Assembly (NCBI RefSeq): GCF_000265205.3
Contig: NT_187163.1
Location: forward strand, 1-64,000
Length of the DNA stretch: 64,000 nucleotides
Direction: 5' to 3'
Source of the DNA: Sinorhizobium fredii USDA 257
GTDB lineage: Bacteria; Pseudomonadota; Alphaproteobacteria; Rhizobiales; Rhizobiaceae
A program made the translations under genes and the position numbers. Below are positions 15,684 to 58,353 of this stretch, piece by piece. Under the pieces are notes generated by a model. That model did not search any database. It was not told the DNA's origin and saw only the letters and a program-made list of their open reading frames with translations. Positions within the stretch are counted from its first letter, which is position 1. Every line of letters starts with the position of its first letter.

Positions 15684-15697
15684 TTGATCCTGCTCAA
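15684..15697 (-). promoter_or_regulatory. FixK/FNR box TTGATCCTGCTCAA
   Basis: Exact TTGA-N6-TCAA palindrome, 77 bp upstream of the alpha/beta hydrolase start. A start of transcription 41.5 bp from its centre would fall near 15649. It is one of a divergent pair with 15806-15819. Confidence 0.75.
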
Positions 15698-15805
15698 TCC
15701 ACGTCGGCAACGGCTGCCAATACGAGGGCAAGGAACGGAGAGAGCCGCACAAGCCCATGTCGGCGCGTCGTAGCGATGCGCTCAGCAAGCCGCGACAGAC
15801 GATCT

Positions 15806-15819
15806 TTGACCATAATCAA
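15806..15819 (+). promoter_or_regulatory. FixK/FNR box TTGACCATAATCAA
   Basis: Exact palindrome 53 bp upstream of the acs start. A class II position would place transcription start near 15854, leaving a short leader with the Shine-Dalgarno GGAGAAGGAGG. Confidence 0.82.
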
Positions 15820-15871
15820 TGCTGCCCGCCCGCATTCCGGTCATTCTTGGTTTGAGGAGAAGGAGGCGGTA

Positions 15872-17620
15872 ATGGCAGCGGGTATCGACATCGGGAGTGA
15901 CAAACAGCGGTCGTCGCCGAACCTTGCTGACTATGACGCAGTCCGGCATGGCTTTGTCTGGCCCACGCCGGAGGAGACTTTCGGTCGCCGCGTTGACGCG
16001 CCCGGCTGCTTCAATATCGGCTACGAAGCGACCGATCACCATGTTGCCGCTGGACGTGGCCGGCGTATTGCCGTGCGCTCGATCGCTGCGGAAGGTCTGG
16101 CGACGACATTGACGTATGCAAGGCTTGCGGAAGACAGTGCCCGTTTTGCCAATGCGCTCGCCGATCTGGGGATTGTGCCGGGCGAACGCGTCTTCACCCT
16201 TCTCGGTCGCGTGCCGGCACTTTACATCGCTGCCCTCGGAACCTGGAAAAGAGGTGCCGTGTTCAGTCCCCTTTTCTCCGCCTTCGGCCCGGAGCCGATC
16301 AGGGCGCGCATGCAGATAGCGGAAGCGAGGGCGCTTGTTACCACTGCGCGACTGTTCGAGCGTAAGGTGAAGCCGGTACTTGGTGACCTGCCGAGCCTGA
16401 AGACGATCATCCTGGTCGGCGGCGGCGATGGTGGGGTGGATTTCGATTTGGCGCTCGCCGGACAGCCGAACACTTGCGACATCGCCCCAACCCGTGCAAA
16501 TGATCTCGCAGTCATCCATTTCACCAGCGGCACCACGGGGCGGCCGAAGGGAGCAATGCACGTGCACGGCGCGGCCGTCGCCCACAAGCTGACGGCGGCC
16601 TACGCGCTGGACCTGAAACCGGACGACATCTTTTGGTGCACCGCCGACCCCGGCTGGGTGACGGGCACCTCCTACGGCATCATTGCGCCGCTCCTGATCG
16701 GCTCTACGCTCATCTCAGACGAGGAGGAATTCGACGCTGAAAGATGGTACGTCAATCTCGAGCGTGAGCAGGTGACCGTCTGGTACACCGCCCCCACGGC
16801 GGTCCGCATGCTCATGAAAGCCGGCAACGACCTACCGCAGCGGTACGACCTCAGCCGCCTACGCCTGATCGCCAGCGTCGGCGAGCCGCTCAACCCCCAA
16901 GCGGTGATCTGGGGGCGCGATGTCCTGAAGCGGCCGATCCACGACAACTGGTGGCAGACCGAGACGGGCGGCATCATGATCTCCAATTTTCTGTCGATGC
17001 CGATCAGGCCGGGCTCCATGGGTCGGCCGGTTCCAGGAATTGAAGCGGCTGTGGTGAGGCGTGAGACCTCCGGTGCCGTGACTTTTGTCGAAACGCCGGG
17101 CGAGCAGGGTGAACTGGCGCTGAAGGCGGGATGGCCGTCGATGTTCACCGGCTACCTTCATGAGGAGGAACGCTATAAAAAGTGCTTCGTCGATGGCTGG
17201 TATCTCACGGGCGATCTCGTTAAGCGCGACACCGACGGCTATTACTGGTTCGTCGGTCGCGCGGACGACGTCATAAAGTCCGCCGGACATCTGATCGGCC
17301 CTTTCGAGGTCGAAAGTGCTTTGCTGGAGCATCCCGCCGTGGCCGAGGCCGGCGTGATCGGCATTCCGGATCCGGTTGCGATGGAGGTGGTCAAGGCGTT
17401 CGTGGCGCTTCGCCCCGGCTACACGCCCGACGAAACCTTGCACAAGAATCTGCTCGCCCATGCCCGCAAGCGGCTCGGGCCTGCCGTCGCGCCCCGCTAT
17501 ATCGACTTCTGCGGCAGCCTTCCGAAGACCCGGTCCGGAAAGGTGATGCGGCGGCTCCTGAAGGCTCGTGAGCTCGGCCTGCCTGAAGGCGACACCTCGA
17601 CGCTTGAGGTGGAGAAATGA
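15872..17620 (+). CDS. acsA: acetyl-CoA synthetase-like AMP-forming ligase
   Basis: A 582-residue ANL-superfamily ligase of the AcsA type. It has the phosphate loop [16 protein letters not shown], the acetate-CoA ligase segments [15 protein letters not shown] and [12 protein letters not shown], the hinge [16 protein letters not shown] and the C-terminal catalytic lysine in [10 protein letters not shown]. It would convert acetate (or a related short acid), ATP and CoA to the acyl-CoA, AMP and PPi. The ATG at 15872 follows a strong ribosome site; the frame is open to 15227 but that part is antisense to the hydrolase gene. Its stop overlaps the next gene by ATGA. First gene of a five-gene operon. 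Confidence 0.88.
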
Positions 17621-18618
17621 GGAACATAGCTGATGATCGCGTCCACCTGACCCGCGAGCATGCCTTCGAGCTGTTGCGCCAGATGACGCGCATCCGCCGT
17701 TTCGAGGAAAAGTGCGCCGAGCTCTATACGCAGGAGAAAATCCGGGGCTTCTTGCACCTCTACATCGGCGAGGAGGCAAATGCCGTCGGTGTGATCTCTA
17801 CGCTTTCGGAAGACGAGGCCATCGTCGCAACCTATCGGGAGCATGGCCATGCCCTGGTGCGCGGCCTTCCGATGAACGAAGTGATGGCCGAAATGTTCGG
17901 AAAGGCGGCCGGCTCCAGCCGCGGCCGCGGCGGTTCCATGCATATCTTCTCCGCGCGCCACCGCTTTTTCGGCGGCAACGCGATTGTCGCAGGCGGGCTG
18001 CCGCTCGCCGTCGGCCTCGCACTCGCCGACAAGATGGTGGGAATCGAACGGGCGACCTGCTGCTTTTTCGGGGAGGGAGCGGCCGCGGAAGGCGAATTCC
18101 ACGAGTCGCTGAACCTCGCAGCCCTTTGGCACCTACCGGTGCTCTTCGTCTGCGAGAACAATCTCTATGCCATGGGCACGGCCCTTGCCCGGTCGCAATC
18201 CAACCCTTCCATCAGCGAACGCGCCGCCGTCTACGGTATTGAATCGGAAGCGGTCGACGGGATGAATGTCGTGGATGTCGAAGCGGCGGCGCGCCGCGCC
18301 GTTCATGCTGTTCGCCGGGGCGAGGGTCCGCGCTTCATCGAAGCCATGACCTATCGCTTCCGCGCGCACTCGATGTTTGATCCAGATCTCTATCGCGAGA
18401 AGGCGGAGATCGAGGAATGGAAGAAGCGGGATCCAATCATGCTGTTCGCTGACTGGGCCTTGTCCGCCGGTATCCTTCACCAGGACGACCGACAGGAGAT
18501 CGAGGCGGGTGTCGCGCAGGAAATCGACGCTGCCGTCGCTTTCGCCGAAGCGGCGGATTGGGAGCCGGTCGAGGACCTTGTGAAAGACGTCATCTCGCCG
18601 CCGGAGACCGTGCCATGA
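17617..18618 (+). CDS. pdhA: pyruvate (or 2-oxoacid/acetoin) dehydrogenase E1 component, alpha subunit
   Basis: A 333-residue thiamine-diphosphate E1 alpha subunit. The cofactor motif runs from [22 protein letters not shown] to CENN, and the phosphorylation-loop region [14 protein letters not shown] is present. It decarboxylates the 2-oxoacid with the beta subunit and passes the acyl group to the lipoyl E2. The class cannot be fixed between pyruvate and acetoin dehydrogenases by sequence alone. ATGA overlaps on both sides couple it to acs and the E1 beta gene. Confidence 0.87.
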
Positions 18619-57530: not shown

Positions 57531-57693
57531 CGGCAAGACTCCGGAAGGACCGGAGAGAGGACTCCCGCGAGCAAATCTATGGCCGGGCCTTAGCCCCACT
57601 TCGCCGCCCCGGCATGATGCCTCAGCAGCTCAAGGTTGAGACGCAGGTCGCTGACTTTGAGGCTTCTAGCTGGCCGGGCCTGTCGGCGGCCCT

Positions 57694-58045
57694 TCAACTG
57701 CGCTCAACGTCCGGCGCCGGAAGTCTCAGCGGGCTCGCCAATGTGACGATCTGGCGGTACTGATCGGCATCGACAATCTCCAGGCCATTCAGGCCGTCAG
57801 GCCACTTCGTCAACGGCTATGCTGTTCGGCTTGCGAACGAGATGATCGAGGCCCTCCAGAGCTATTTCCACGAGATCATTCTTCTGGTCATAGGTAATGC
57901 CAAGCAGCGGGACCCACTTCGCCTCGATCTGGTCGCCGAGCCGGAGCCCCGTCACTTCGACTTGCGCGCGCTTGCCTTCCAGGGCGCCCGCGATCCGTTC
58001 GAAGTAGAAATGCCATTCGGGCTTAGCCAAGAAACGACTTGCCAT
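57694..58045 (-). pseudogene. DUF5335 family protein, frameshifted
   Basis: The N-terminal 82 residues (EWHFYFERIAGALEGKRAQVEVTGLRLGDQIEAKWVPLLGITYD … LVRKPNSIAVDEV) stop at 57797-57799. The usual ending (PDGLNGLEIVDADQYRQIVTLASPLRLPAP) follows in another frame to a stop at 57694-57696. One base too many near 57802 explains this. It starts 19 bp after chaB and was in its operon. The function of the family is unknown. Confidence 0.78.
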
Positions 58046-58064
58046 AGTTCACCACTCCTGTTGG

Positions 58065-58277
58065 TCAGCCATCCGAGGCAACCCATTCGTTCCCGATCTT
58101 CGAATAAGAGCGTTTCACCGCCGCCCAGGCGATCCGGCGCGATGCCTCTTCCTGACGCGGATCGCCGACATGGGCGGCAAATGCGTGATTGAACGCTTCA
58201 CGGTAAATGTCCTGTGCGTGCCGGGGCAAGGATTGCCTGACGGCCGGCGGCAGGTCGGCGTTGGAAGTATAAGGCAT
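58065..58277 (-). CDS. chaB: ChaB family protein
   Basis: A 70-residue protein matching ChaB (MPYTSNADLPPAVRQSLPRHAQDIYREAFNHAFAAH … EEASRRIAWAAVKRSYSKIGNEWV). ChaB is annotated as a regulator of cation transport, but the evidence is thin. The ATG at 58277 has GGGGGGAGCC in front; the frame to 58301 is less likely. The FixK box is 63 bp upstream, and the DUF5335 gene follows. Confidence 0.88.
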   Translation of the reverse strand: MPYTSNADLPPAVRQSLPRHAQDIYREAFNHAFAAHVGDPRQEEASRRIAWAAVKRSYSKIGNEWVASDG

Positions 58278-58339
58278 TGGCTCCCCCCAATTTCGCTGCA
58301 TGCGCTCTTAAAGCATTTCCCTTCTTGCATGACCTGACA

Positions 58340-58353
58340 TTGATTTTGATCAA
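58340..58353 (-). promoter_or_regulatory. FixK/FNR box TTGATTTTGATCAA
   Basis: Exact FNR-form palindrome 63 bp upstream of chaB; predicted transcription start near 58305. Confidence 0.82.

Follow-up and report, generated by a model that had tools for sequence, protein, structure and literature searches.

A putative FixK-type regulon spanning about 123 kb of a Sinorhizobium fredii plasmid, with a candidate hFixL-FxkR-FixK cascade of its own

The island and its plasmid

The stretch of DNA analysed here (the window) comprises bases 1-64,000 of C14, a 210,605-bp contig in the 7.03-Mb genome of Sinorhizobium fredii USDA 257; our subject is a gene island that begins in this window and is rich in exact copies of the palindrome TTGA-N6-TCAA, the anaerobox, a predicted operator of FixK-type regulators. 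Positions 7663-153023 of C14 are 99.93% identical to plasmid pSF45436d of S. fredii CCBAU 45436 (NZ_CP029234.1), which has all 45 of the island sites, is identical in its repA, repC, and virB genes, and is typed as conjugative (MOBQ, MPF_T); no TraA or TraG matches were found on C14. About 1.1 kb of other DNA (C14:155740-156884) interrupts repC, which is thus in two parts relative to pSF45436d. Site-gene relations were taken from the annotation of this near-identical plasmid, whose gene table is incomplete in that it lacks pseudogenes.

The island annotation lists 103 genes, mostly of stress, energy, or unknown function. Stress genes include six for universal stress proteins (USPs) together with Hsp20, GroEL, FtsH, DegP-like and site-2 proteases, and BON proteins; among the others are P-type ATPases, an HPF-like protein, PpsA, glucokinases, acetate-CoA ligases, phosphoketolase, argF, and ABC exporters. 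Some genes (USP, BON, and host-attachment-type) are duplicated.

Clustering of anaeroboxes

The window contains 24 exact sites, whereas 100 dinucleotide shuffles gave a mean of 0.60 and a maximum of 5. Twenty-three of them lie within 15,684-58,353 (Table 1); the remaining one, at 411, reads TTGAATGATATCAA, with an A after TTGA that is found in none of the 45 sites at 15.7-138.5 kb, 41 of which have T or C there. The whole contig holds 47 sites, 45 between 15,684 and 138,486 (39 distinct 14-mers) and two outliers at 411 and 172633; 22 are located at 73-138 kb. A sequence-only reading of the window had described 22 sites in a single 43-kb block and none in the first 15 kb. The dense clustering is confirmed, but the count is 23, the site at 411 makes the second statement slightly wrong, and, since the sites run on to 138.5 kb, the 43-kb block is only the left part of one of about 123 kb; a block confined to the window is ruled out.

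Control patterns on the contig gave few matches or none (AACTN6AGTT, 0; TGATN6ATCA, 4; spacing of 5, 6; spacing of 7, 0), compared with 47, and one-mismatch near-sites were not enriched in the block. Genome-wide there are 160 exact sites as against 34 for the reversed-pattern control, and 77 as against 4 when the pattern is constrained to Y..R. Outside C14 the rate is 16.6 sites per Mb, at which the 42.7-kb block should have 0.71 and the full 122.8 kb should have 2.0; for the 23 sites in the block the Poisson P is about 7e-27, a value that ignores heterogeneity such as a second cluster on contig C1. Equal density is therefore absent from the genome as a whole, but density is also high in the adjacent 73-138 kb and in that second cluster (C1:4.02-4.14 Mb), where a FixL-like kinase and a further hybrid FixL (hFixL)/FxkR set are encoded along with cbb3 oxidase genes.

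Promoter position of the sites

Although annotated coding sequence makes up 79.9% of the span, 39 of the 45 sites lie wholly outside it, 3 overlap a gene end, and the 3 inside genes are no more than 240 bp from annotated 5′ ends. An annotated start is found within 130 bp of 34 sites, and 26 site-gene pairs fall at 50-84 bp, with a peak at 58-74 bp. For the block itself, the sequence-only reading had placed all or nearly all sites between genes, mostly 50-130 bp upstream of starts, and had named four divergent pairs; all four pairs are real (15684/15806, 25535/25591, 31852/31875, 45827/45896), 18 of 23 sites have an annotated start no more than 130 bp away, and the intergenic claim needs amending for three sites inside annotated genes (28967, 37391, 43077) and one overlapping a 3′ end (23578). 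The annotated Hsp20 start is probably over-extended across the site at 28967. Sites 37647 and 50173 share a 14-mer and have similar translated surroundings, perhaps a duplicated promoter segment.

Of the 26 orientations that face a gene, 11 have a TAnnnT motif starting 20-23 nt beyond the site, compared with 8 of the 64 others; shuffled downstream DNA gave a mean of 1.17, and none of 5000 shuffles reached 11. This is the spacing of class II promoters, with the operator near -41.5. A G stands two bases past the site in 23 of the 26 gene-facing orientations. Under a loose rule (site between 300 bp upstream of a gene and 70 bp into it, plus same-strand followers with gaps of at most 120 bp), 46 of the 103 island genes are predicted direct targets and 76 are targets when operon followers are included.

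Table 1. Predicted anaeroboxes of the block, and regulatory genes and K-boxes of the window and contig. Distances are from site to annotated start; L codes denote related loci.
Feature	Position	Strand	Remarks
Anaerobox	15684..15697		alpha/beta hydrolase (-), 84 bp; divergent pair
Anaerobox	15806..15819		acetate-CoA ligase/pyruvate dehydrogenase-like operon (+), 60 bp
Anaerobox	23578..23591		DUF2267 gene (-), 136 bp; overlaps ftsH 3′ end
Anaerobox	25535..25548		ftsH (-), 68 bp; orthologous R. lentis ftsH also has site
Anaerobox	25591..25604		universal stress protein (+), 58 bp; 55 bp in L031, L035, L037; none in L032
Anaerobox	28967..28980		inside annotated Hsp20 (-) 5′ end; 5/5 orthologs have site near projected start
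Anaerobox	29187..29200		GYD-domain gene (+), 66 bp; none found at its one ortholog
Anaerobox	31852..31865		PolX (+), 64 bp; acyltransferase (-), 42 bp; divergent pair
Anaerobox	31875..31888		acyltransferase (-), 66 bp; PolX (+), 42 bp
Anaerobox	33696..33709		CysQ-like phosphatase (+), 122 bp
Anaerobox	37391..37404		inside annotated 5′ part of ABC transporter gene (-)
Anaerobox	37647..37660		BON-domain gene (+), 82 bp; 75-78 bp in L031, L034, L035, L037; none in L036
Anaerobox	39452..39465		BON-domain gene (-), 68 bp
Anaerobox	41048..41061		APH/AAA kinase gene (-), 130 bp
Anaerobox	41298..41311		no annotated start within 200 bp
Anaerobox	41703..41716		glucokinase (+), 116 bp
Anaerobox	43077..43090		host-attachment-family protein (+), 124 bp; inside small annotated hypothetical gene (-)
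Anaerobox	45827..45840		PDZ/DegP-like gene (-), 60 bp; none found at its three orthologs
Anaerobox	45896..45909		divergent hypothetical gene (+), 164 bp; homolog preceded by sites in five loci
Anaerobox	48487..48500		DUF3775 gene (+), 98 bp
Anaerobox	50173..50186		in decayed stretch; 14-mer identical to 37647
Anaerobox	53454..53467		second Crp/Fnr-family gene (+), 70 bp; 68 bp in S. medicae
Anaerobox	58340..58353		ChaB-family gene (-), 70 bp
fxkR pseudogene	46554..47294	-	one in-frame TAG; 69% to FxkR9
One-mismatch K-box	47319..47334	+	adjoins fxkR pseudogene
Sensor kinase remnant	50244..51605	-	weak Cache-like domain and FixL-like PAS; kinase part lost
FixK-like activator	52503..53243	-	ETVSR recognition helix; no FNR-type cysteine cluster
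Exact K-box	53330..53345	-	centre 94.5 bp upstream of fixK start
Second Crp/Fnr-family protein	53513..54277	+	divergent; no ExxSR; predicted target
FxkR-like	contig 103574-104314	-	68% to FxkR9
Two-mismatch K-box	contig 104353		92.5 bp upstream of second fixK
Second FixK	contig 104453-105202	+	
Hybrid FixL	contig 105213-107090	+	FixL-type PAS, HisKA, HATPase, REC

Regulators encoded on the contig

The block encodes, as the sequence-only reading had stated, a FixK-like regulator with an ExxSR helix: PF00027, PF13545, and PF00325 all score above cut-off, the best PDB match is FixK2 (4i2o, 2.7e-27), with ETVSR aligned to it, and the protein is 50% identical to FixK9b of pRL9. Its only cysteines are at 31, 132, and 203. 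The FixK side of the proposed FixK/FNR regulon is thus supported and the FNR side is not, and a regulator without the FNR-type N-terminal cluster would need a separate oxygen sensor. Upstream of fixK is the sole exact copy on the contig (mean of 0.01 in 200 mononucleotide shuffles) of the FxkR binding site known as the K-box, GTTACA-N4-GTTACA (PMC4999443, PMC7888657). The neighboring Crp/Fnr-type protein has a changed recognition helix and no detectable nucleotide-binding domain; it has an anaerobox of its own, as does its counterpart in S. medicae.

A candidate sensor and response regulator are found farther along the contig, and the plasmid has open reading frames for hFixL, FxkR, and both FixK proteins; hFixL-FxkR acting through a K-box, the likely driver of the activator, had gone unnoticed in the sequence-only reading. 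The PAS domain of hFixL matches FixL 8js5 at 1.9e-45, and the highest-ranking PDB match, 5idj, aligns to the kinase part. With FxkR9 as query, the genome gave C1:4116513 (70%), the in-window copy with its one TAG (69%), 103592 (68%), and then nothing above 47%; by sequence, the contig FxkR is orthologous to the reference FxkR9. The decayed fxkR copy is identical in pSF45436d and in genome G010, and the sensor remnant scores 35.3 bits for dCache_1, below the 45-bit cut-off; together they suggest that a second sensor and response regulator decayed in the window while fixK and its K-box stayed. As for FixJ control of the local fixK genes, no FixJ site with fewer than 4 mismatches was found on the contig using one 17-mer form (the 16-mer of PMC4999443 plus one added T); FixJ sites are degenerate, and such control may still occur.

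Conservation in related loci

Seven related 50-kb loci were compared (S. meliloti 1021 pSymA, S. sojae, S. medicae pSymA, pSmeSM11a, S. fredii GR64, R. lentis p1, and S. meliloti GR4). Specifically, i) each has 9-14 anaeroboxes and 0-1 match per control pattern; ii) five of the seven have an exact K-box; iii) the hFixL-FxkR-FixK cascade is located in the island there too; and iv) an anaerobox lies upstream of the ortholog in 93 of 133 gene-locus pairs for genes that bear a site here, often at equal spacing, compared with 11 of 115 for genes that do not (tblastn, coverage of at least half, E <=1e-15), counts in which paralogous USP, BON, and other genes enter more than once and the loci are interrelated.

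Across the genus, hFixL is present at E <=1e-120 in 15 of 33 genomes. In the 14 of these other than our own, the loci compared have anaeroboxes at 1.4-6.3 per 10 kb, the S. sojae locus being repeated among them and the value of 6.3 coming from a 6.4-kb contig; an exact K-box occurs in 12 of the 14. Genomes with hFixL average 57.8 copies of TTGAYN4RTCAA (n=15) as against 36.2 in those without (n=18; P 2e-5, or 1e-4 when our own genome and the two least complete genomes are left out).

Published expression data

Qiu et al. (2021; PMC8552645) report that 103 of 203 pSF45436d genes rose in cultures with humic material, as did ccoO (21.2-fold) and ccoP (17.5-fold), and call the role of the plasmid unclear. 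All ten plasmid-d genes in Table 1 of that article are predicted targets here, nine direct and one an operon follower (P = 0.003 for nine direct, a post hoc value on genes that the authors picked as stress genes). Among the six island USP genes, the sole one that is not a predicted target (RS32565) is also the sole one absent from that table, a single case. If the humic-material cultures ran low in oxygen, as we infer, a FixK regulon may explain the rise of half of the pSF45436d genes together with ccoO and ccoP.

Strain-dependent expression is enriched on pSF45436d (Jiao et al. 2018; PMC5991415); the term fixK does not occur in the main text of that article, nor is pSF45436d named in the main text of PMC7029138. 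In R. leguminosarum the small heat shock protein gene rlv_1399 provides an example of a stress gene with an anaerobox, induced microaerobically through FnrN (PMC11784457). We recognised no published account of FixK control of pSF45436d or its island by title, abstract, or passages, in a literature where subscription articles are mostly uncovered.

A proposed cascade and its alternatives

A FixK-type regulon is the reading best supported by operator sequence, promoter position, conservation at orthologs, a FixK-like protein, and a candidate cascade on the same contig. We propose that FixK uses the sites as anaerobox operators in a regulon extending over about 123 kb of a rhizobial plasmid, under the plasmid hFixL-FxkR-FixK cascade, and put the probability of this at roughly 85%; the plasmid would then probably carry a large FixK-type regulon driven by its own cascade. 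As oxygen falls, hFixL would be freed from oxygen inhibition at its haem PAS domain and would phosphorylate FxkR, which would act on the exact and two-mismatch K-boxes to turn on both fixK genes; FixK dimers would then bind anaeroboxes, mostly in class II activation with the operator near -41.5. Genes turned on would be those for USPs, Hsp20, GroEL, FtsH, DegP-like proteases, and BON proteins on the stress side, and for phosphoenolpyruvate synthase, glucokinases, the acetate-CoA ligase/pyruvate dehydrogenase-like operon, and ornithine carbamoyltransferase on the metabolic side. Sequences, positions, conservation, and domain architecture are observed directly; from them we infer haem binding, phosphotransfer, DNA binding, low-oxygen activation, and the role of the plasmid cascade, rather than host FixL/FixK, as main driver.

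Several observations weigh against this proposal. NCBIfam FixK is the best NCBIfam match of the in-window activator, at 144.6 bits against a 300-bit cut-off; this model is a Caulobacter equivalog, and we accordingly call the protein FixK-like. Likewise, hFixL scores 276.7 with NCBIfam FixL, whose cut-off is 850 bits. The K-box of the second, intact fixK has two mismatches, and no exact K-box was found in loci L035 and L037, the compared loci of genomes G006 and G014, or C1:4.10-4.14 Mb. Forty of the 133 ortholog pairs of site-bearing genes lack a site, six of the 45 sites lack any annotated start in the nearest 200 bp, and 27 of the 103 island genes are not predicted targets, including fxkR, the second fixK, hfixL, the HPF-like gene, and phosphoketolase. 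The humic-material study was not an oxygen experiment, found nod/nif/fix unaffected, and invokes rsh (PMC8552645), and the ten-of-ten overlap with its table is weak against a background of 76/103 (P = 0.04, likewise post hoc).

The sites could instead be FixK operators driven by the host FixL and FixK, or by the hFixL-FxkR-FixK set on C1, with the plasmid cascade redundant or decaying. C1 encodes a FixL-like kinase (4051414), two FixK-like proteins (4033679, 4054217), cbb3 oxidase genes, and another hFixL/FixK/FxkR set (4114008-4117211), and decayed copies of fxkR and of a sensor are already present on the plasmid; against this, the plasmid cascade genes are all open and accompanied by an exact K-box, and in related loci the cascade is again within the island. 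We consider a host driver unlikely. Much less probable still is that the sites answer another Crp/Fnr-type signal, through an FNR/FnrN iron-sulphur sensor or a nitric oxide regulator (NnrR/Dnr). NnrR-type regulators recognise a similar box. FnrN and FixK recognise one and the same box (PMC4999443, PMC7888657), and a Crp/Fnr protein of another type is encoded at C1:4025829; but none of six genomic HTH_Crp proteins has the FNR-type N-terminal cysteine cluster, on which ground FNR/FnrN was rejected as regulator, although weaker members could escape a Pfam search, and denitrification genes are not listed in the (incomplete) island annotation. That repeats spread the palindromes can be set aside despite the 14-mer common to 37647 and 50173 and the duplicated USP, BON, and host-attachment-type genes, because the 39 distinct 14-mers and the conserved promoter-like positions argue against it, as do the control patterns, which together with the shuffles and the genome-wide rate rule out chance or composition.

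Mobility

Two other species of the genus have contigs alike to C14 over about 150 kb, at 99.97-99.98% identity in G006 (contig C66, matching from C14 59127 onward) and 99.93-99.995% in G010 (contig C66, from C14 7605 onward), whereas rpoB-region DNA is 94-95% identical among the three genomes; one 3-kb stretch of C1 matches G010 at 90% identity, and G006 lacks a full match to it. With exact 15-nt flanks, 36 of the 45 sites are found in G010 and 22 in G006, whose contig is without the left half of the island. The simplest reading of near-identical contigs and a divergent rpoB region suggests very recent plasmid transfer between Sinorhizobium species. More tentatively, and with less than even confidence, we suggest that the plasmid might be a transmissible, self-contained hypoxia-survival programme, in which sensor, response regulator, activator, about 45 operators, and about 76 of the 103 island genes move as a unit between Sinorhizobium species, giving the recipient a DosR- or lxa-like low-oxygen state without host regulators.

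Neighboring features

Left of the island, window 1-11500 holds transposase-like genes and remnants, including an IS1182-type element at about 6181-7677. At the other end, a GH94/glucoamylase-family gene of great length (its pSF45436d counterpart measures 8.3 kb) takes up 60517-63990 and continues beyond; it is not a predicted target. A P-type ATPase gene at 54835-57599 seems broken over several reading frames, with one break fewer in the pSF45436d annotation, and the DegP-like gene at 44839-45774 has PDZ domains and no protease domain match. Elsewhere, three close copies of TTGACAGCTGTCAA lie at G000:C1:2291700-2292941, and also at G001:C2:452665-453943 and G002:C49:300115-301284, the third copy being varied in G002; kept in other species, these are probably operators of another regulator.

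Relation to known systems and significance

The closest known system is the hFixL-FxkR-FixK cascade of R. leguminosarum/johnstonii 3841 pRL9 and of R. etli (PMC7888657, PMC4999443). The pRL9 system resembles ours in protein identity (hybrid FixL 62%, FxkR 68%, FixK 45-52%), a K-box upstream of fixK, anaerobox targets, plasmid location, and fixK-hfixL adjacency, and a 25-kb stretch of pRL9 likewise includes a universal stress gene together with 9 anaeroboxes. However, the pRL9 cluster accompanies fixNOQP/fixGHIS, whereas the 103-gene island described here is mostly devoted to stress, energy, and unknown functions and has 45 putative anaeroboxes. In S. meliloti, pSymA (the compared region of which we take to be the SMa1141 region) and the accessory plasmid pSmeSM11a have orthologous hFixL/FixK/FxkR, USP, BON, MBL, and acetate-CoA ligase genes with nearly the same anaerobox spacing, but have 12-13 sites in 50 kb, whereas the small plasmid described here has 45 over 123 kb. 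For that species, fixNOQP, arcABC, and degP4 are listed as confirmed targets of FixK (PMC3164228). The kind of system is thus already known from pSymA, pSmeSM11a, and pRL9; what is new is how large it is, that much of a small plasmid is given over to it, and that it has apparently spread recently.

The DosR response regulator of Mycobacterium tuberculosis and its operator are unrelated to the FixK system. The DosR regulon works alike, with 48 hypoxia-induced genes and 10 USPs (PMC6127331). The lxa locus of the betaproteobacterium Burkholderia cenocepacia, a single block, BCAM0275-0323, that encodes six USPs, one heat shock protein, one BON protein, and a phosphofructokinase, is like the island in function, by description, and its suggested Anr/FixK-like regulator is located outside the locus (PMC6127331).

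In this legume-nodulating soil bacterium, dozens of plasmid stress and energy genes share a common putative low-oxygen switch site. A concrete candidate role can thereby be given to pSF45436d, that of one putative oxygen-responsive regulon over most of the island genes, and a simple explanation is offered for the co-induction of half of its genes with the cbb3 oxidase genes. The proposal also makes testable the idea that an entire stress programme travels with an oxygen sensor of its own instead of spreading gene by gene; if it is true, a recipient cell may gain a ready-made low-oxygen survival programme along with the plasmid.

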